From: a virus
IMG/VR virus record: IMGVR_UViG_3300003332_000067
Location: 1-44,074 of that record
Direction: 5' to 3' (one strand)
DNA: 44,074 nt
Numbering within the stretch: the first letter of the stretch is position 1; every line of letters begins with the position of its first letter. The notes beneath the pieces were generated by a model. It made no database searches. It was given only the letters and a program-made list of their open reading frames with translations, and was not told where the DNA came from. Shown piece by piece: positions 1,454 through 44,030 of this stretch. Made by a program: the position numbers and the translations under genes.

Positions 1454-2092
1454 TTATTCGCCCCTGAAGGCATATTCTGCCCAGTGGTCTTCGGTTATAA
1501 TGTGTGGACCGCCATACCGGTCTCTATACTCCATTGCCTTCTCTATTTTCCTCCCATATGGAGAGTGTATCCATTCAGTGCTGCCAAAATATCCACACAC
1601 AAGGTAGTCAAGCTGGATTGTGATATTGTTTATAGCCCTGCCTTCTCTTTCATGTATTACTTCTTTACAGACCTTCCTGGGGCCATAAGCAAAGGTCCCA
1701 GTGAAACAAAACAATTTATCCTTAAATATCACTCTTGGCGCCGGGTCGGTTACTGGGAGTGCAGCTGTCAGATTTGCCGTAGCGTCGAGGGTGTTTACTT
1801 GTCCTGTAAATCCTTGCAAGAGTTCCAAGAGTTCTCTTTGCTCTTCTTGGTCGAATTCGTCATCGATGAGCATTTCATGGATGCGCCGATAGATTCGGTT
1901 AACCATTTTATCCTGTGAACATGGGACATTGACTTCCATCCAATTTCTCAGGACTATTGCTTCTTCGTGATTTACGTTTCTATCTGCAATAATGCCTTTT
2001 GATAATCCTACAAGTTCATCAATCGCCCGGTCGTCAAGACGTTTTTTGCTATAGTGGTTCATTGCTTTTCGTGCTCCTCTACCCCTTGCCAT
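1454..2092 (-). CDS. BRCT-domain protein
   Basis: A 212-residue protein with a C-terminal BRCT domain like the one at the end of NAD-dependent DNA ligase. From about residue 124 it reads KLFCFTGTFAYG, then a basic helix, and the domain closes with the tryptophan-containing helix TEDHWAEY. BRCT domains bind phosphoproteins, DNA ends or each other. The N-terminal part (about 20-95) is helical and acidic (DELVGLSKGIIADR, EEAIVLRNW), like the helical segment that accompanies BRCT in other small bacterial proteins. No ligase or exonuclease domain is present. ATG at 2092 has no clear Shine-Dalgarno sequence. The in-frame ATG at 2062 follows GAGGAG at 11 bases and could be the true start. The role is probably DNA- or recombination-related, but this is inference. 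Confidence 0.8.
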   Translation of the reverse strand: MARGRGARKAMNHYSKKRLDDRAIDELVGLSKGIIADRNVNHEEAIVLRNWMEVNVPCSQDKMVNRIYRRIHEMLIDDEFDQEEQRELLELLQGFTGQVNTLDATANLTAALPVTDPAPRVIFKDKLFCFTGTFAYGPRKVCKEVIHEREGRAINNITIQLDYLVCGYFGSTEWIHSPYGRKIEKAMEYRDRYGGPHIITEDHWAEYAFRGE

Positions 2093-11143: not shown

Positions 11144-11383
11144 ATGAAAAACAAACTAACAGATTTGAATAACCATCTCTTTGCTCAATTAGAAAGGCTA
11201 TCAGATGAAGATATAAAGGGTGATGAGCTGGCTGAGGAAATAGCACGATCCAAGGCGGTTACCAGTGTGTCTAGGGAAATCGTCAACAATGGGAAGTTGG
11301 TTCTTGATGCTGAAAAAGCAGCTACTGCTGGACGTCTGGTCGATAGGAAAGTTCCTACAATGCTCCAAGTTGAAGTGAGATGA
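11144..11383 (+). CDS. Conserved small phage protein upstream of HNH gene
   Basis: A 79-residue helical protein: LTDLNNHLFAQLERLSDED, then EEIARSKAVTSVSREIVNNG and KLVLDAEKAA. From memory, proteins with this reading often sit directly before a HNH endonuclease gene in siphovirus packaging clusters. Its function is not established. GAGGAAACG precedes the start, and its stop overlaps the HNH start (ATGA). Confidence 0.7.
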   Translation: MKNKLTDLNNHLFAQLERLSDEDIKGDELAEEIARSKAVTSVSREIVNNGKLVLDAEKAATAGRLVDRKVPTMLQVEVR

Positions 11384-12180
11384 GTTTCCGGAATACTGCA
11401 GAACATCTCGAATTTCTCCGTTCTGGATACCTGGAGATGCGGATCCCGGAGCTCACCAAGGCTTTTAATCTCCATTTTGATCTGAAAAAGACAAATGGGC
11501 AGATTAAATCCACTTTAAAAAACCATAAAATCACCTGCGGCCGTAAGGGCGGTCACCTGAAAGGAGTGTGTCTTATCTTCACTCAGGAACAGGCTGAGTT
11601 TATTAAGGCAAAATACAGAGATATGCCTCTCTCGGATTTGACCAATATATTTAACGAGCGTTTTGATACGGAGAAGACCTTCTCCCAGTTGCGATCCTTT
11701 ACAAGGAATCATAAAGTCAAGAGTGGCAGGACAGGTCGTTTTGAAAAAGGGAATAAGCCGCATAACACTGGGACCAAAGGTTTGATGCCCGGCAGTAGCA
11801 CAAGTTTTAAAAAAGGAAATATACCCAAAAATCTAAAACCACTTGGATCTGAGAGGGTGTGCTCCAAAGACGGCTATATCCTGATCAAAGTTGCTGAAAA
11901 GAATCCCTACAACGGTCAGCCAACCAGGTACCGGGCAAAACATATTGTTGTTTATGAAAAAGAACATGGGCCGGTACCGGATGGCTATATGGTCAGGTTT
12001 GCTGATGGTGATAAGTTGAATTGTTCGCCTGATAATCTTGAGCTCGTCTCAAAAAGAGAAAATTTATATTTAAACAACAATGGCTATTCCGATTTGCCGG
12101 AAGAATTAAAACCAACCATGAAAGCCCTGGCAAAAGTCGAAATCAAAGTTTCTTCTCTGCTGAAAGAAGCAGCTGCGTAG
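11380..12180 (+). CDS. HNH endonuclease with duplicated DNA-binding module
   Basis: A 266-residue protein. The N-terminus holds two copies of one helical module: HLEFLRSGYLEMRIPELTKA (about residues 9-57) and QAEFIKAKYRDMPLSDLTNI (about 70-117). Each is followed by a basic loop. A linker rich in PxNxGTKG and FKKGN patterns follows. The HNH-like domain (about 175-245) has AKHIVVYEKEHGPVPDGY and then FADGDKLNCSPDNLELVS. In this family the second histidine position reads F-x-DG, as here. HNH proteins next to terminase genes are known in several phages to stimulate cos cleavage, so a role in packaging is likely. The gene is coupled by ATGA overlap to its upstream partner. Confidence 0.85.
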   Translation: MSFRNTAEHLEFLRSGYLEMRIPELTKAFNLHFDLKKTNGQIKSTLKNHKITCGRKGGHLKGVCLIFTQEQAEFIKAKYRDMPLSDLTNIFNERFDTEKTFSQLRSFTRNHKVKSGRTGRFEKGNKPHNTGTKGLMPGSSTSFKKGNIPKNLKPLGSERVCSKDGYILIKVAEKNPYNGQPTRYRAKHIVVYEKEHGPVPDGYMVRFADGDKLNCSPDNLELVSKRENLYLNNNGYSDLPEELKPTMKALAKVEIKVSSLLKEAAA

Positions 12181-12183
12181 CTC

Positions 12184-14181
12184 ATGACCTGCCCAGCAAT
12201 AGACATATCAAAAAACAAAACCATCCGCCTCAGAACAGATCCGTCCTGGCTCCCTGAAAAATACCGCAACCGCTCCAAGCGAATCCGGATCAAGTTTAAG
12301 ACACTCCCTGGGGAACGTCGCCTCCTCCGCAAGCGTAAAAAAATAGAGCCATCAAAATGGGCGCCTAAAAATCGTCGCATCACCTATGGTCCGCTCAAGG
12401 GATCCTATTACGATCCGGACTTCATGCCCCATATGAATGGGATCATCGATACCTTTGTTCTGCCTTTTGTCCAAGAGGTGGGAAACTGCAAAGCTCCACA
12501 GACTGGCAGCTCTGCAGGCGCAGAAACCGCCCTGGCTTATCTGGCTGATATGAGCCCTGGGGATACCCTTATCGTTTATCCGGATCGGGAGACTTCCGGT
12601 AAGCGTGGTAAGGATTACCTCAAGCCCATGTTTGAGGAGTCTCCACGGCTGCGCAAGCTTATGACCGGGATCGCGGATGATGTTGCCGCATTTCGGGTGA
12701 AGCTTCAGACCATGCTTGTGTATATGGGCTGGGCGCACTCTGTAACAAGCCTTGGAAACGTGTCGGTTAAGTATCTGTTTCTGGATGAGGTGGATAAGTA
12801 TCCAAAGCAAGCCTCTAAAAAAGAGGCTGCTACTATCTATTTGGCGAAGGAGCGTGTTCGTGCTTACCTCAAGTATGGTGGCAAGATCTGGTATAACTCC
12901 ACTCCGACAGAATCGGCGGGGCCCATAACCGAGTTTCTTGAATCTGCTCACGCTGTATTTGACTTTTTTCCAAAATGTCCGGACTGTGGCCAGTACGAAT
13001 ATATGGTCCATGAGAATGTTCGCTTCCCTGAAGATCAGCGGGATCCTGAAAAGATCGAGGAACAAAAACTGGCCTATTATGTCTGTTCCCATTGCGGTGT
13101 GCAATGGGATGATCGCCAACGGGATAGGGGCCTCATTGTTGGGGAATGGTTTGCCCGTCTCCGGAACTGGAAAGAAGAACGGGACAAAGGCAACCAGTGG
13201 GGCCATGATCCCAGGCCGCGAAAAGAATATCTATTCGCCGAACGGCCTAAAAAAGTCGGTTTCCAATCCCCTGGTCTGATCTCTCCCCTGGTCTCTATCT
13301 CTGAATATGCGGCCTGGTTCCTTCGTGGCCGGCGCTCCAAGCTCGATATGCGCTTTTTTATGAATCAGATCAAAGCCGATGCCTTTCTCGATTACGAAGT
13401 GCAGCGCAAAGAAGATGTGATCCTGGCCCTCAGGGATGATCGTCCGGAGGGGCTGGTACCTTCAGGTAATGTTGTTTCCGGCCTGATTGCCGGTGGTGAT
13501 ACTCAGGACAACCGCTTTTACTATCATATTCACGCCTTCGGTTGGGGGTTGGAGCAGGAATCCTGGCAGATAAAATCCGGAATGGTGGATACCTTTGCCG
13601 CCTTACGGGAAGTCGTTTTCGAAAATGAATATAAAGATCTGGAAGGTAATATCTATCCGGTTCAGCTTCTGGTACAGGATGCCATGGGACATCGGACTAG
13701 TGCCGTATATGATTTTGTCCGTTCCCTCCCCGGCCGAGCTGTCCCTTATAAGGGTGCCACCGGCCGTCGCCCGAATCCCTATACAAAAACTAAAATTGAT
13801 AAATACCCGGGTACTGAAAAACCTATCCCCGGTGGAGTTGTTTTGTATACCTGCGACTCCCACCATTACAAAGACCAGGTGGCATCAAAATTGGCCATTA
13901 ATCCTGCAGATCCTGGCGCCATGCATTTACATGCAGATGTCACGGAGGAGTTTGCCCGCCATATGTGTGTGGAGTATGTGGATGAACGTGGTCTCTGGCA
14001 GCAGCCCAAGGGGAAACGTCAGGATTATTGGGATACCGTCAACTATGCATTTATTGGTGCTGACCTGGTGCAGCTCAAGTTTAGGAAGAAAATAGACCTG
14101 CAGCCACAAAAAATTGAAGAAAAAACGGCCTTGGTAAATCCTTATACCGGTGGCCGGCAACTGTTTGGAGGCTCTCGATGA
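12184..14181 (+). CDS. Terminase large subunit, lambda GpA family
   Basis: A 665-residue packaging ATPase-nuclease, close to the usual 640-700 of the family. The N-terminal ATPase has a degenerate Walker A region at KAPQTGSS (about residue 103) and Walker B KYLFLDEVD (D201, E202). A zinc knuckle typical of GpA follows: CPDCG (C265, C268) and CSHCG (C301, C304). The C-terminal nuclease contains GGDTQDNR, VQDAMGH and the final KRQDYWDTVNYA motif. It cuts DNA concatemers and drives DNA into the prohead through the portal. The Walker A lysine-serine element is not canonical, which is common in this family. The ribosome-binding site is weak, so translation may be coupled to the HNH gene ending 4 bases upstream. 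Confidence 0.93.
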   Translation: MTCPAIDISKNKTIRLRTDPSWLPEKYRNRSKRIRIKFKTLPGERRLLRKRKKIEPSKWAPKNRRITYGPLKGSYYDPDFMPHMNGIIDTFVLPFVQEVGNCKAPQTGSSAGAETALAYLADMSPGDTLIVYPDRETSGKRGKDYLKPMFEESPRLRKLMTGIADDVAAFRVKLQTMLVYMGWAHSVTSLGNVSVKYLFLDEVDKYPKQASKKEAATIYLAKERVRAYLKYGGKIWYNSTPTESAGPITEFLESAHAVFDFFPKCPDCGQYEYMVHENVRFPEDQRDPEKIEEQKLAYYVCSHCGVQWDDRQRDRGLIVGEWFARLRNWKEERDKGNQWGHDPRPRKEYLFAERPKKVGFQSPGLISPLVSISEYAAWFLRGRRSKLDMRFFMNQIKADAFLDYEVQRKEDVILALRDDRPEGLVPSGNVVSGLIAGGDTQDNRFYYHIHAFGWGLEQESWQIKSGMVDTFAALREVVFENEYKDLEGNIYPVQLLVQDAMGHRTSAVYDFVRSLPGRAVPYKGATGRRPNPYTKTKIDKYPGTEKPIPGGVVLYTCDSHHYKDQVASKLAINPADPGAMHLHADVTEEFARHMCVEYVDERGLWQQPKGKRQDYWDTVNYAFIGADLVQLKFRKKIDLQPQKIEEKTALVNPYTGGRQLFGGSR

Positions 14182-14414
14182 GTCAAATTGCAACCGTTTA
14201 TCTGATAGATGTTACGAGTGCGGCTGAGTCCGGAGTGGATTACTCTTCCCGGTATGGCGCCAAGTGCCCGGCTTGTGGAAAGCGGGCGAAAGTTGTTACT
14301 ACAAGACCCTGGGAAGATACCGTCAGGGTGCGGTATCATCAGTGCCAGACGGTTGGGTGTGTTCTGGCTTCCCAGGGGAAGATGATTAAGAGTGTTGAGG
14401 CGGATTCGAGGTAA
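14178..14414 (+). CDS. Ogr/Delta-like zinc-finger protein
   Basis: A 78-residue protein with a single zinc finger: KCPACGKRAKVVTTR, a variable loop, then RYHQCQTVGCV. The CPxCG, aromatic-x-C and C spacing matches the Ogr/Delta type known from P2-like phages, where such proteins activate late promoters. Here it is coupled by ATGA overlap to the terminase and sits at the end of the early block, just before the opposing cassette and the head genes. It could activate the head-tail operon. Function is inferred. Confidence 0.65.
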   Translation: MSQIATVYLIDVTSAAESGVDYSSRYGAKCPACGKRAKVVTTRPWEDTVRVRYHQCQTVGCVLASQGKMIKSVEADSR

Positions 14415-14419
14415 GGTGC

Positions 14420-14440
14420 TTTTAATATCTTATATTAAAA
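14420..14440. terminator. Weak AT-only hairpin at a convergent gene junction
   Basis: TTTTAATAT (14420-14428) and ATATTAAAA (14432-14440) form a 9-base inverted repeat with a 3-base loop. It lies between the Ogr-like gene and the converging membrane-protein gene, overlapping the latter's stop codon. All pairs are A-T, so termination would be poor; only its position supports this call. Confidence 0.25.
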
Positions 14441-15092
14441 AATATTCGGGATAGAAGATCGAAATAAGGAGTTTTATTTTGATTAAAACAATACCAGCTG
14501 TAATCCAAACAAGGCCTACCAGGGACCATGCCAAGCCACCTATATGAAATTCTTTCCGGTCATCTTGTGTTTTGGCTACCACTTTCTTTAATTCTGCAGC
14601 ACTCTTGTTTTCGGCTTCGTTTTGTCGTTTTTGTAAAGAGTATATTTTGGTTCTTTGTTTTTTTTGATCACCATGTAGAATATCAAGATTGTTTGCCAGA
14701 ACTTGAATCTGCTCTTTAATGTCACTGTTGGGATCTCGGTTTTTCCAGGTACTGATATGCGCGTCCAACGTGCCAAAACCTTTTAAGACAACAGCACCTT
14801 TGCCTCCAGCATGGCCGTGTTGTCTAGGTCTGCTTTTCCACCATTCCTGAAAAATATCAATCGGTGATTTAGTTTTAAGTTTTTTTGGTACATCCAACAA
14901 TCCACTTATCGCTAAAAACATCCCTAAACACTGCAGGCCAGTCCCGCTTAATTCAAAACATTTTTCAGTTTTACACCAAAGAGCTACTGCAAATGCCAGA
15001 AAAATCATTCCTGCAGCAGCACCAATGATTTTCATTTTCCAGAGCCAATTGATCCACGCTTGTAATAGGTTAATTTTTTGTTTAATTTTCAC
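14430..15092 (-). CDS. Cassette gene 4: multi-pass membrane protein with cytoplasmic coiled coil
   Basis: A 220-residue protein of unknown function. Membrane segments are likely at about residues 22-40 (IIGAAAGMIFLAFAVALW), 48-66 (ELSG then LQCLGMFLAISGLL) and 184-215 (GLAWSLVGLVWITAGIVLI and beyond). The middle, residues about 67-182, is soluble. It contains a Gly/His-rich patch (RQHGHAGGKGAVVLKGFGTL) and a long helix (KKQRTKIYSLQKRQNEAENK), and would be cytoplasmic if the N-terminus is inside. It is last in the four-gene leftward cassette, 42 bases after the repeat protein, with GGTGA before its ATG. The pairing with an SH3b membrane protein suggests a membrane complex. Confidence 0.7.
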   Translation of the reverse strand: MKIKQKINLLQAWINWLWKMKIIGAAAGMIFLAFAVALWCKTEKCFELSGTGLQCLGMFLAISGLLDVPKKLKTKSPIDIFQEWWKSRPRQHGHAGGKGAVVLKGFGTLDAHISTWKNRDPNSDIKEQIQVLANNLDILHGDQKKQRTKIYSLQKRQNEAENKSAAELKKVVAKTQDDRKEFHIGGLAWSLVGLVWITAGIVLIKIKLLISIFYPEYFLI

Positions 15093-15134
15093 CGATCTTC
15101 TGTGTGTGTTTTTTTTTTGAGCAGCATTAATCTG

Positions 15135-16286
15135 CTATTTAAACATTTTCAGGTAGCGAGTAAAAGTCCATCCTTCAATGGTTATTCCACGATTATCGTC
15201 TGTCCATCTGACCATAGTCCAGTTTTTCTTTTTCTCGACTATTTCTACTGCTTGGCCAAAGTATAGGTAACCTAGTATTTCTCCACTTTTACTCGGCTGT
15301 TTTCTTACGTGAAGCTTGTCGGCATCTACCTGTCTAAACGAGTTAAGTACTGATCTATCTATAGGGAGACTGTTTGCATTTTTATTATTCTGTTTGCTGA
15401 TTTGTTTCTTTTCACTTTTGTTTAGATAGTTTTCAACCTGATGAGCAGCAATTGGATTGAAGTAGGCAAAGAAAAACCCGCAGACCAAAACGATTATTAG
15501 TTGTGTTATTAGAGGGTTTTTGAGTGACTCTGCCTTATCGAACAGAATGCTAACGCTGTGTGATATATTATCTATTTGCTCCTGTATGCCAATGGCTACA
15601 GGAGTGTGTGTTCCAGCCATCTCACCTGTTACCATGGAAAGAGACACTGAAAGCCCCAGACTGACATTCGCTTCTATGGTGCTTGTTTGGTTGGGAGCTG
15701 CAGATTGTTGTAAGTCCTTAACTTGATGTTGTAGAGTTGAATATTCTTTCCATATATCAGCTTTTTCGAAAATGCTCTGCAGGGAGGATCCACCTTGTGG
15801 TATAAATCTCTCAAAGATCCCTTGGTCTTTTATTGCTGCTTGAATGGTTTTGGCTGAAGATATTTGATCTTGCACCGTTGCCAAGATAGATTTCCAATGC
15901 CCCTGATCTTTCATGGCAGCTTGAATGGCTTTGGTAGAAGACATTTGGTCTTCCGCCGCTGCCATGGTAGCTTTCCAATGACCCTGGTCTTTCATGGCAG
16001 CTTGAATGGCTTTGGTAGAAGGAATTTGGTCTTTCGCCGCTGCCATGATAGCTTTCCAATGCTCCTGGTCTTTCATGGCAGCTTGAATGGCTTTGGTAGA
16101 AGGAATTTGGTCTTTCGCCGCTGCCACAACAGCTTTCCAATGCCCCTGATCTTTCATAGCAGCTTGAATGGCTTTGGCTGAAGACATTTGGTCTTCAGCC
16201 GCTGCTAAGACAGAATTCCAACGATCCTGGTCTTTCATGGCAATTTGAGCAGCTTCGAGATAGCTAGGCGTTTTTATCTTTTTCAC
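15135..16286 (-). CDS. Cassette gene 3: 27-residue repeat, membrane segment, SH3b domain
   Basis: A 383-residue protein. Residues about 12-158 are five to six copies of a 27-residue helical repeat of the form AIQAAMKDQGHWKAVVAAAK plus DQIPSTK. A linker to about 257 follows, then one membrane segment (258-277, PLITQLIIVLVCGFFFAYF). The C-terminal SH3b domain (321-381) has DKLHVRKQPSKSGEILGYLY and EGWTFTRYLK. With no signal peptide, the repeats should be cytoplasmic and the SH3b domain periplasmic, where SH3b domains usually bind cell wall. The start is GTG 16286 with GGAG five bases upstream, in a GTGA overlap with the previous gene. No known family combines these parts to my knowledge. A sensor or exclusion role is speculation. 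Confidence 0.8.
   Translation of the reverse strand: MKKIKTPSYLEAAQIAMKDQDRWNSVLAAAEDQMSSAKAIQAAMKDQGHWKAVVAAAKDQIPSTKAIQAAMKDQEHWKAIMAAAKDQIPSTKAIQAAMKDQGHWKATMAAAEDQMSSTKAIQAAMKDQGHWKSILATVQDQISSAKTIQAAIKDQGIFERFIPQGGSSLQSIFEKADIWKEYSTLQHQVKDLQQSAAPNQTSTIEANVSLGLSVSLSMVTGEMAGTHTPVAIGIQEQIDNISHSVSILFDKAESLKNPLITQLIIVLVCGFFFAYFNPIAAHQVENYLNKSEKKQISKQNNKNANSLPIDRSVLNSFRQVDADKLHVRKQPSKSGEILGYLYFGQAVEIVEKKKNWTMVRWTDDNRGITIEGWTFTRYLKMFK
15820..16250. repeat. 81-base tandem repeats, about 5.3 copies, coding
   Basis: Copies begin near 15820, 15901, 15982, 16063, 16144 and 16225, exactly 81 bases apart, so the reading frame is kept. The inner copies are very similar and the outer two more diverged, as expected when copy number changes by unequal exchange. 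They encode the 27-residue repeats of the membrane protein. No spacers are present, so this is not a CRISPR array. Confidence 0.9.
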
Positions 16287-16648
16287 TCGTCTCCGTACAA
16301 GTCGATCGGTAAGTTGTTAATTGTAAAATCGCTAATGACTACATCGCTTCCACCAGGTGTGAAATCAAATTTCCCTGATCCGGAGACAGTTTTTGTGAAA
16401 TTTTCATCCATCCCTTCTTTGTCAGAGGACGCCATGAGTCGTAGATTTAAAGAGAGGCTGGTATTTTTGAACTCAAAAGTTCTATTCGGAACATCCACCC
16501 AAATATCTTTCATTTCGGCATAAACATCTGTGTCATTTATGCCATAATGACCTGGACTTGTTTCCTCTAGGATTTCATTCCATTCAGCACATGCCTCTGG
16601 GGAACAAAGTGCATCAGCTATCTTTTCTCTTATAGTGTCTATTTCCAT
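16283..16648 (-). CDS. Cassette gene 2: acidic soluble hypothetical protein
   Basis: A 121-residue acidic protein. The N-terminal helix is EIDTIREKIADALCSPEACA. The rest looks like a beta-sandwich (DIWVDVPNRTFEFKNTSLSL, LRLMAS, GSGKFDFTPGGSDVVISDF). Function unknown. Its stop overlaps the GTG start of the repeat protein, which indicates coupled, stoichiometric production. It starts 19 bases after cassette gene 1. Confidence 0.65.
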   Translation of the reverse strand: MEIDTIREKIADALCSPEACAEWNEILEETSPGHYGINDTDVYAEMKDIWVDVPNRTFEFKNTSLSLNLRLMASSDKEGMDENFTKTVSGSGKFDFTPGGSDVVISDFTINNLPIDLYGDE

Positions 16649-16667
16649 TAAGTTTTTCCTTTTTTTA

Positions 16668-17153
16668 TTATTTGTTAAAGCACTCTGTTATTAACTTTAT
16701 GATTTCTTTTTCAATGGCTTCGGTTGTTATTCCACTAAGTTTATATTCATTTGTTGCACCTGCGTGTCCGCCCCGGCCGTCCATTATTGTGTTCTCGTGG
16801 CCTCTTATTTTATTGTGAACTCCATCTGTGGTGAAAGCTATGTGTGGGACTTCTCTCGCATTTTTTCCGTTTGGGAGAATAATCATTTTTATGGAGACAT
16901 TTATAGAGTGTGTATCTCTCCCGTTAGTGGTGTCGTCCTGTAGGATTATGTCATAGCCATGGCCCCGCTTTTTGATCGCCTCACCCATTTTTGTCATGGT
17001 GGGTCTAATAATTTCTTCGCATTTTTGTTTAAAGTTTTCTAGAAAGATTGCTCGCTTCTTTTCTCTATCATCCTCCGCTTTTATTATTTCGTCTTGCTTG
17101 TGGTCATAGTTGTCAAAAACTGCATTCAACTTGTCGATTGCTTCGTCGCTCAT
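16668..17153 (-). CDS. Cassette gene 1: hypothetical protein, first of the opposing operon
   Basis: A 161-residue soluble protein. Residues 1-65 form a long charged helix region (KLNAVFDNYDHKQDEIIKAE, KRAIFLENFKQKCEEIIRP). Residues 66-145 look beta-rich (GYDIILQDD, THSINVSIKMIILPNG, VPHIAFTTDG), and a final helix is EAIEKEIIKLITECF. ATG 17153 has the excellent ribosome-binding site GAGGAGA; an upstream in-frame ATG at 17243 does not. No family is recognised with confidence. Its promoter is at 17202-17230. Confidence 0.7.
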   Translation of the reverse strand: MSDEAIDKLNAVFDNYDHKQDEIIKAEDDREKKRAIFLENFKQKCEEIIRPTMTKMGEAIKKRGHGYDIILQDDTTNGRDTHSINVSIKMIILPNGKNAREVPHIAFTTDGVHNKIRGHENTIMDGRGGHAGATNEYKLSGITTEAIEKEIIKLITECFNK

Positions 17154-17201
17154 TACTTTCTCCTCTTGGTTTTGTTGGTGTTTTCTCGTTTGATTTAGAA
17201 C

Positions 17202-17230
17202 ACGATAGGCACTGCCACATAACGAGTCAA
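17202..17230 (-). promoter_or_regulatory. Sigma70-type promoter of the four-gene cassette
   Basis: On the minus strand TTGACT (17230-17225), a 17-base spacer and TATCGT (17207-17202) match the -35 and -10 consensus well. They lie about 50 bases before the ribosome-binding site of cassette gene 1. This would allow expression from the prophage while the late genes are silent. Confidence 0.6.
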
Positions 17231-17333
17231 GACCAGCAGCCACTCAATTTGCACAAACCACACGGCCACACTCTGTTTTTCACACCCCACCCTACCTATA
17301 AATAGCATTTTCCATGCCAGTGCACTACATGTT

Positions 17334-17368
17334 GGTACTAGAAATAGTAGTGTACTAGATCTAGTACC
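17334..17368. promoter_or_regulatory. Palindromic operator-like element between cassette and late operon
   Basis: GTACTAGATCTAGTAC (17352-17367) is a perfect 16-base palindrome. A third half site GTACTAGA lies at 17335-17342, so GGTACTAGA (17334) and TCTAGTACC (17360-17368) also form a 9-base inverted repeat. The element sits between the divergent cassette promoter and the gpW gene, about 80 bases before ATG 17448. It is likely a binding site for a dimeric regulator; which one is unknown. No T run follows, so it is not a simple terminator. Confidence 0.5.
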
Positions 17369-17447
17369 GACCCTCTTTATTTTCTGATTTTTTTCCCCTA
17401 CCCTTACCTTAAATCAAGTTGCAAAAACGGAAACGATTTGAGGTCCT

Positions 17448-17672
17448 ATGCCAACGCTCACAGAACTCCAGGAAAGATATACCAGAATTGATAAGGCAAT
17501 TGGTGTTGTTGAGGATACTGGCCAAAGCTATAGCATTGGCAATCAGACTTATGCCAAAGGTGATCTGCGCACCATGTATGCCGAGAGGTCTAGGGTTGAA
17601 CAGCAGATTACTGTCCTTACCCAACGTGGCCGTCTCTCTCATGCCACCACAGTGTTTGGGGGGCGTCGATGA
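17448..17672 (+). CDS. Head-tail joining protein, gpW-like
   Basis: A 74-residue protein whose length, helix-strand-helix layout and position between terminase and portal match lambda gpW. It has LTELQERYTRIDKAIGVVED, the hairpin QSYSIGNQTYAKGD and helix RTMYAERSRVEQQITVL. It completes the filled head and is needed for tail attachment. GAGGT lies five bases before the ATG, and the stop overlaps the portal start. It is the first gene of the head operon after the opposing cassette. Confidence 0.85.
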   Translation: MPTLTELQERYTRIDKAIGVVEDTGQSYSIGNQTYAKGDLRTMYAERSRVEQQITVLTQRGRLSHATTVFGGRR

Positions 17673-43953: not shown

Positions 43954-43985
43954 TGGTCGGGACAGGAGGATTCGAACCTCCGGCT
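43954..43985. other. Predicted right attachment site in the tRNA-Pro 3' end
   Basis: Inferred, not seen. A tyrosine integrase lies at the far left reading outwards, and the tRNA 3' half forms the boundary on the right. The core should therefore lie in the T arm and acceptor 3' strand and recur just left of this window. The second copy is outside the sequence, so the exact core cannot be defined. Confidence 0.4.
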
Positions 43986-44030
43986 TCCTGCTCCCAAGGC
44001 AGGCGCGCTACCAGGCTGCGCTATGCCCCG
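43954..44030 (-). tRNA. tRNA-Pro (anticodon TGG), CCA encoded
   Basis: A complete cloverleaf on the minus strand. The acceptor stem CGGGGCA pairs with TGTCCCG, the D arm is GCGCAGCCTGGTAGCGC, and the anticodon stem is CCTGC/GCAGG with loop CTTGGGA (anticodon at 43996-43994). The T arm is GGAGGTTCGAATCCTCC, and discriminator A then CCA are genomic. Its 3' end points into the prophage, which is the usual arrangement at a tRNA attachment site. Confidence 0.97.

Follow-up and report, generated by a model that had tools for sequence, protein, structure and literature searches.

Four leftward genes, g1 to g4, lie within 14430-17153 of the window, by which we mean the whole stretch analyzed, a linear IMG/VR virus record of 44,074 bp, and they are very probably accessory (moron) cargo of a phage that carries an integrase. 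They occupy the junction between an Ogr/Delta-type zinc-finger ORF and a gpW-like ORF with the portal gene, a junction which appears from comparison with two related phages to be a site of variable cargo. The most likely role, to which we give a probability of roughly 0.4, is that of a moron cassette encoding a membrane-linked complex which would protect the lysogen by exclusion or defense. Moron cargo is a kind already known; the proteins of this cassette are new. Many new anti-phage systems have come from prophage cargo slots, and here the proteins are absent from the family libraries.

The cassette and the junction that holds it

The initial annotation had described two soluble proteins, a repeat protein with one membrane segment and an SH3b domain, and a multi-pass membrane protein, all encoded leftward and with genes 2 and 3 overlapping at GTGA; our analysis agrees with each of these points (Table 1). 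ORF calls and codon usage mark g1 to g4 as real and coding, the annotated frame of each outscoring the other five frames when judged by the codon usage of the phage core genes. No TM segment is predicted in g1 or g2, and neither protein rose above the Pfam or NCBIfam cut-off. The start of g1 is the ATG at 17153, preceded by an AGGAG Shine-Dalgarno sequence; a start at the upstream GTG (17243) is less likely. The intergenic gaps in the cassette measure 19 and 42 nt. The cassette is AT-richer (GC 38-42%, GC3 33-42%) than the core genes (GC3 48%), and no terminal repeats of a mobile element were found flanking it.

Table 1. Features of the cassette and its borders (positions in the window).
Feature	Position	Strand	Details
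Ogr/Delta-type zinc-finger ORF	14178..14414	+	left border of slot; Pfam E 3.5e-9
g4	14430..15092	-	220 aa; three TM segments (22-40, 48-66, 192-210); coiled-coil-like middle
g3	15135..16286	-	383 aa; 27-aa repeats at the N-terminus, then one TM, a polar linker and SH3b at the C-terminus
g3 SH3_3 (bacterial SH3) domain	15147..15314	-	Pfam E 2.3e-8
g3 membrane segment (predicted)	15444..15500	-	residues 263-281
81-bp tandem repeat array in g3	15819..16242	-	5.2 copies, unit AIQAAMKDQGHWKAVVAAAKDQIPSTK
g2	16283..16648	-	121 aa, soluble; GTGA overlap with g3 (16286-16283)
g1	16668..17153	-	161 aa, soluble
Candidate sigma-70 promoter	17202..17230	-	TTGACT-N17-TATCGT; 9 of 12 match; 49 nt from g1 ATG
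Hairpin / tandem dyad	17331..17371	.	GTACTA-N4-TAGTAC-N-GTACTA-N4-TAGTAC; right edge of slot, outside cassette
gpW-like ORF	17448..17672	+	74 aa; right border of slot; identity by position

The flanks had been read as terminase, gpW and portal. Pfam identifies terminase gpA (E 3e-43) and a lambda-type portal (E 3e-90); the 74-aa ORF at 17448 has no credible Pfam match, and its assignment as gpW follows from position. Two viral contigs encode a terminase 56% identical over its full length, and in all three phages the genes for TerL, the Ogr-like, gpW-like, portal and protease-like proteins and MCP stand in the same order, at 41-67% identity. The content between TerL and gpW is unrelated among them and amounts to three different cargo sets: one relative (L002) has an 86-aa protein and a 228-aa HTH protein, both rightward, and the other (L003) has several rightward ORFs, including one for a radical-SAM-like protein, with the Ogr-like gene flanked by cargo on either side. 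The likeness of this last protein (L003 10952-11758) to radical-SAM / DUF5131 proteins is weak. No g1 homologue was found in either whole relative record (G001 and G002), and no homologue of any of g1 to g4 in the 18-kb stretches L002 and L003. As in a moron locus, then, the cassette is absent from close relatives in which the flanking core genes are retained in order, and as in a cargo hotspot, related phages carry different cargo at one site.

The cassette had been thought to interrupt an otherwise unbroken path to the portal gene. This view could not be kept: the junction is filled in both relatives as well, and it is therefore a cargo slot of the clade, to which the interruption as such belongs. 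In VP882, FP_Epona and Mica little or nothing separates terminase from portal. As defined by three phages, the TerL-gpW junction is, on sequence comparison, a variable cargo site, with about 14415-17245 as the putative phage-specific cargo. The right edge is sharp, DNA common to the relatives resuming at about 17246. Unrelated cargo at the same junction, conserved flanks and the integrase together uphold the proposal of accessory cargo in an integrase-carrying phage. The integrase gene (Phage_integrase, E 3e-19) is found at 3-1115 on the minus strand and runs off the left end of the record, and its presence leads us to regard the phage as temperate.

Several other features of the record were noted. 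An HTH-like ORF of repressor size, recognized by eye and without a Pfam match, lies near the integrase. The 212-aa product of 1454-2092 (minus strand) resembles, by eye, a BRCT domain in its C-terminal part (FTGTFAYGPRKVCKEVIHEREG), with no Pfam match at E 0.01. An HNH endonuclease gene (11380-12180, plus strand; HNH_3, E 2.5e-18) immediately precedes the terminase large subunit gene and has no homologue in the L002 and L003 stretches. A tRNA-Pro (tgg) at 43954-44030 (minus strand), at the right end of the record, may mark an attachment site or the cut point of a circular genome.

At the right edge of the slot a 41-nt hairpin has been kept in the window and both relatives although their cargo differs; the copies in the relatives (L002 11404-11436, L003 12450-12482) likewise lie upstream of the gpW-like gene, and the element is single-copy in each of the three records. 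The hairpin belongs to an element made up, in order, of TATAAA(A)TAGCA, GCCAGTGCA, two tandem 16-bp dyads and a C/T tract. The two dyads together fold as one long hairpin, with z-scores against shuffles of -5.8, -7.2 and -6.6 in the three phages, and random 202-bp sequences of the same composition would contain at least one perfect 16-bp palindrome in 0.3% of cases. Among 19 aligned pairs, 12 are invariant and two show two-sided changes between window and relatives that keep the pairing; the outermost three fail in some of the three phages. A search of Rfam gave nothing credible; possible functions of the element are those of terminator, operator or packaging site (cos). Together with the terminase and portal genes, the hairpin offers anchors by which cargo could be collected from further members of this uncultured phage clade.

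Relatives of the cassette proteins

The protein g1 is the founder here of what appears from sequence to be an undescribed phage family, held together by the motif T[MI]xxG[RK]GG. Relatives were sought by motif scans with a g1 pattern and by an alignment scan; the 100 and 25 pattern matches reduced to only four distinct real proviruses, and the alignment scan added a fifth. The relatives in these five other proviruses are 23-33% identical to g1 and occupy at least two kinds of place in the phage genome, the names of their neighbors being read from the sequences without profile matches. In G003, G005, G006 and G007, which look like one lineage, the relative is encoded in the direction of the late genes between an antiterminator-like and a holin-like ORF (L109 8826-9404, L110 7998-8492, L132 1268-1759 and L141 7778-8269); in G004 it is flanked by KilA-N-like and nuclease-like ORFs. 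No relatives of g2, g3 or g4 were present in the fetched loci of the five proviruses.

The fixed position beside the holin gene in four proviruses raises the possibility that the cassette, or at least g1, serves the lytic cycle of the phage itself, for example in the timing of lysis or the control of late genes. We regard this as improbable: in the window the cassette is antisense to the late operon, both close relatives do without its genes, and the G004 relative stands alone between its KilA-N-like and nuclease-like neighbors.

Other searches with g1 were negative. Neither g1 in tblastn nor the family consensus detected anything among cultured phages and plasmids; exact-peptide scans of viral contigs with g1 to g4 revealed no relatives of the cassette, and such scans of 84,980 genomes with g1 and the terminase, by which only close relatives are detectable, gave nothing. 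In the structure model of g1 (pLDDT 84.7) a long helix is followed by a five-strand sheet and another helix; the model had no Foldseek match at E <= 0.001. In VIA-align 2 CapZ chains ranked first (Z 9.7), frataxin and an Rhs immunity protein scoring near 8, where models without a clear match typically reach a best of 7-8; the arrangement of helix, sheet and helix is a common one, and we dropped these matches as a clue to function. The g2 model was unusable (pLDDT 38). No relatives of g2 or g4 were detectable in the collections searched, tblastn of g2 against cultured phages and plasmids and of g4 against plasmids included.

The C-terminal part of g3 recurs. Its end of TM, linker and SH3b was found by tblastn on plasmids of Advenella and Variovorax (E 5e-6 and 2e-3; WP_014752749.1 and WP_146039713.1) and also in the phage protein family phrog_23259; all three share with g3 a TM segment, a polar linker, a C-terminal SH3b domain and a GWxxxRYL-type terminus, whereas their N-terminal parts bear no sequence relation to its helical (predicted) repeats. 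The plasmid genes lie at L150 7473-8375 and L151 7194-8336. Neither gene has g1, g2 or g4 nearby. The remaining tblastn matches of g3 were weak ones, to an SH3 in one faecal phage and, for the repeats, to tape-measure proteins. A designed repeat binder (phmmer E 1.4e-4) and Pfam Reovirus_M2 were rejected as relatives of the repeats, both matching repeat composition. New handles for finding related cargo are thus at hand in the g1 family, with its relatives in five other proviruses, and in the TM-SH3b end that g3 shares with other proteins.

Such separate travel of g1 relatives and g3-like proteins would suit a chance assembly of four unrelated cargo genes that arrived singly and have only site and direction in common, and the 19- and 42-nt gaps and intact frames are compatible with several histories. 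The GTGA overlap of g2 and g3 and the operon-like arrangement of all four genes, codirectional and preceded by a single candidate promoter, make this origin quite unlikely. The distribution also bears on the earlier idea of a fixed system connecting an intracellular sensor to an envelope effector, against which it counts: g1 relatives occur without g2 to g4 in five proviruses, and the plasmid proteins with the g3 end occur without g1, g2 and g4. The four genes were found together nowhere else in the collections searched, which covered few cellular genomes, and absence of co-occurrence had been named at the outset as a result that would refute the cassette idea. This absence is weak evidence, since exact-peptide scans detect only close relatives.

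Expression, topology and proposed role

A promoter of their own had been assigned to the four genes. The string TTGACT-N17-TATCGT is indeed present; the region holds 10 promoter-like sites against 6.7 +/- 2.7 in shuffles, so that such matches are within chance. The fold of the strand ahead of g1 is unremarkable (z +1.2). A recognized sign of a moron locus is the presence, next to lytic genes, of antisense genes that have a promoter of their own (PMC7067206), and in P2-like phages the hotspots, which adjoin the portal gene, abound in anti-phage systems (PMC9122126); both points count in favor of a moron with an anti-phage role.

Lysogen expression, topology, complex formation and the protective role we infer as follows. 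Lying against the late genes of a temperate phage, the cassette could be expressed in the lysogen; g3 and g4 would be inner-membrane proteins, with the g3 repeats and the coiled-coil part of g4 on the cytoplasmic side and the SH3b domain of g3 facing the wall, and g1 and g2 would be soluble partners of this membrane complex. The set might then protect the lysogen from other phages, either by excluding superinfecting phages or by an abortive response acting at the membrane, which is our first choice for a set of two membrane proteins and two soluble partners.

The orientation of g3 is the part of this scheme on which the observations diverge. By the positive-inside rule, the lysines that follow directly on its TM segment favor an SH3b domain in the cytoplasm rather than the periplasm, and thus argue against the periplasmic placement in the initial annotation. 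The end of g3 also resembles TagH (NCBIfam PRK13545; E 1.6e-4, weak and below cut-off), the ATPase part of which must be cytoplasmic, and this resemblance would favor an SH3b domain outside.

The expectation that none of the four proteins belongs to a described defense system was borne out. The PADLOC-DB 2.0.0 profiles gave no credible family match for g1 to g4, the sole match (g4, E 0.02) being noise; Pfam and NCBIfam gave nothing above cut-off except the SH3 domain in g3; and no nuclease, NTPase, nucleotidyltransferase or other usual effector domain was found in the four proteins. This lack of defense-family matches and effector domains weighs against a protective role, as do the gene set found together nowhere else, the promoter at chance level and the holin-side position of g1 relatives in four proviruses, with which a lytic role would agree no less well. 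Many morons have non-defense roles. Lysogenic conversion is accordingly a possible, if rather doubtful, reading, by which the complex would alter the host envelope, stress response or surface and help the lysogen in ways other than defense; the two membrane proteins, the wall-type SH3b domain and the missing defense-family match fit it, the soluble g1 and g2, which have no known envelope relatives, less so. Changes in host physiology are a frequent effect of morons (PMC7067206).

Protection of the lysogen by exclusion or defense remains the role we favor. A specific form of it, an undescribed envelope-linked anti-phage system in which g1 and g2 would sense, the g3 repeats relay to a wall-binding SH3b domain and g4 act as membrane effector, seems unlikely.

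Comparison with known systems

The hotspots of P2 and P4 are small, about 1-5 kb, lie between two conserved genes and show high turnover, and P4 cargo is found in either orientation (PMC9122126). The slot described here is similar as a small, high-turnover locus between conserved phage genes. It differs in its borders, with a lambda-type terminase/zinc-finger unit on one side and the gpW-like and portal genes on the other, and in its content, which includes no known defense gene; the hairpin at its edge is only a candidate cos. Like rexAB, old/tin and the antisense ST64B locus STMMW_20121 (PMC7067206, PMC9122126), the cassette would belong to the extras of temperate phages that are read apart from the lytic genes. 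Unlike these, it comprises four genes, two of them for membrane proteins, and its sequence showed no relation to any PADLOC family.
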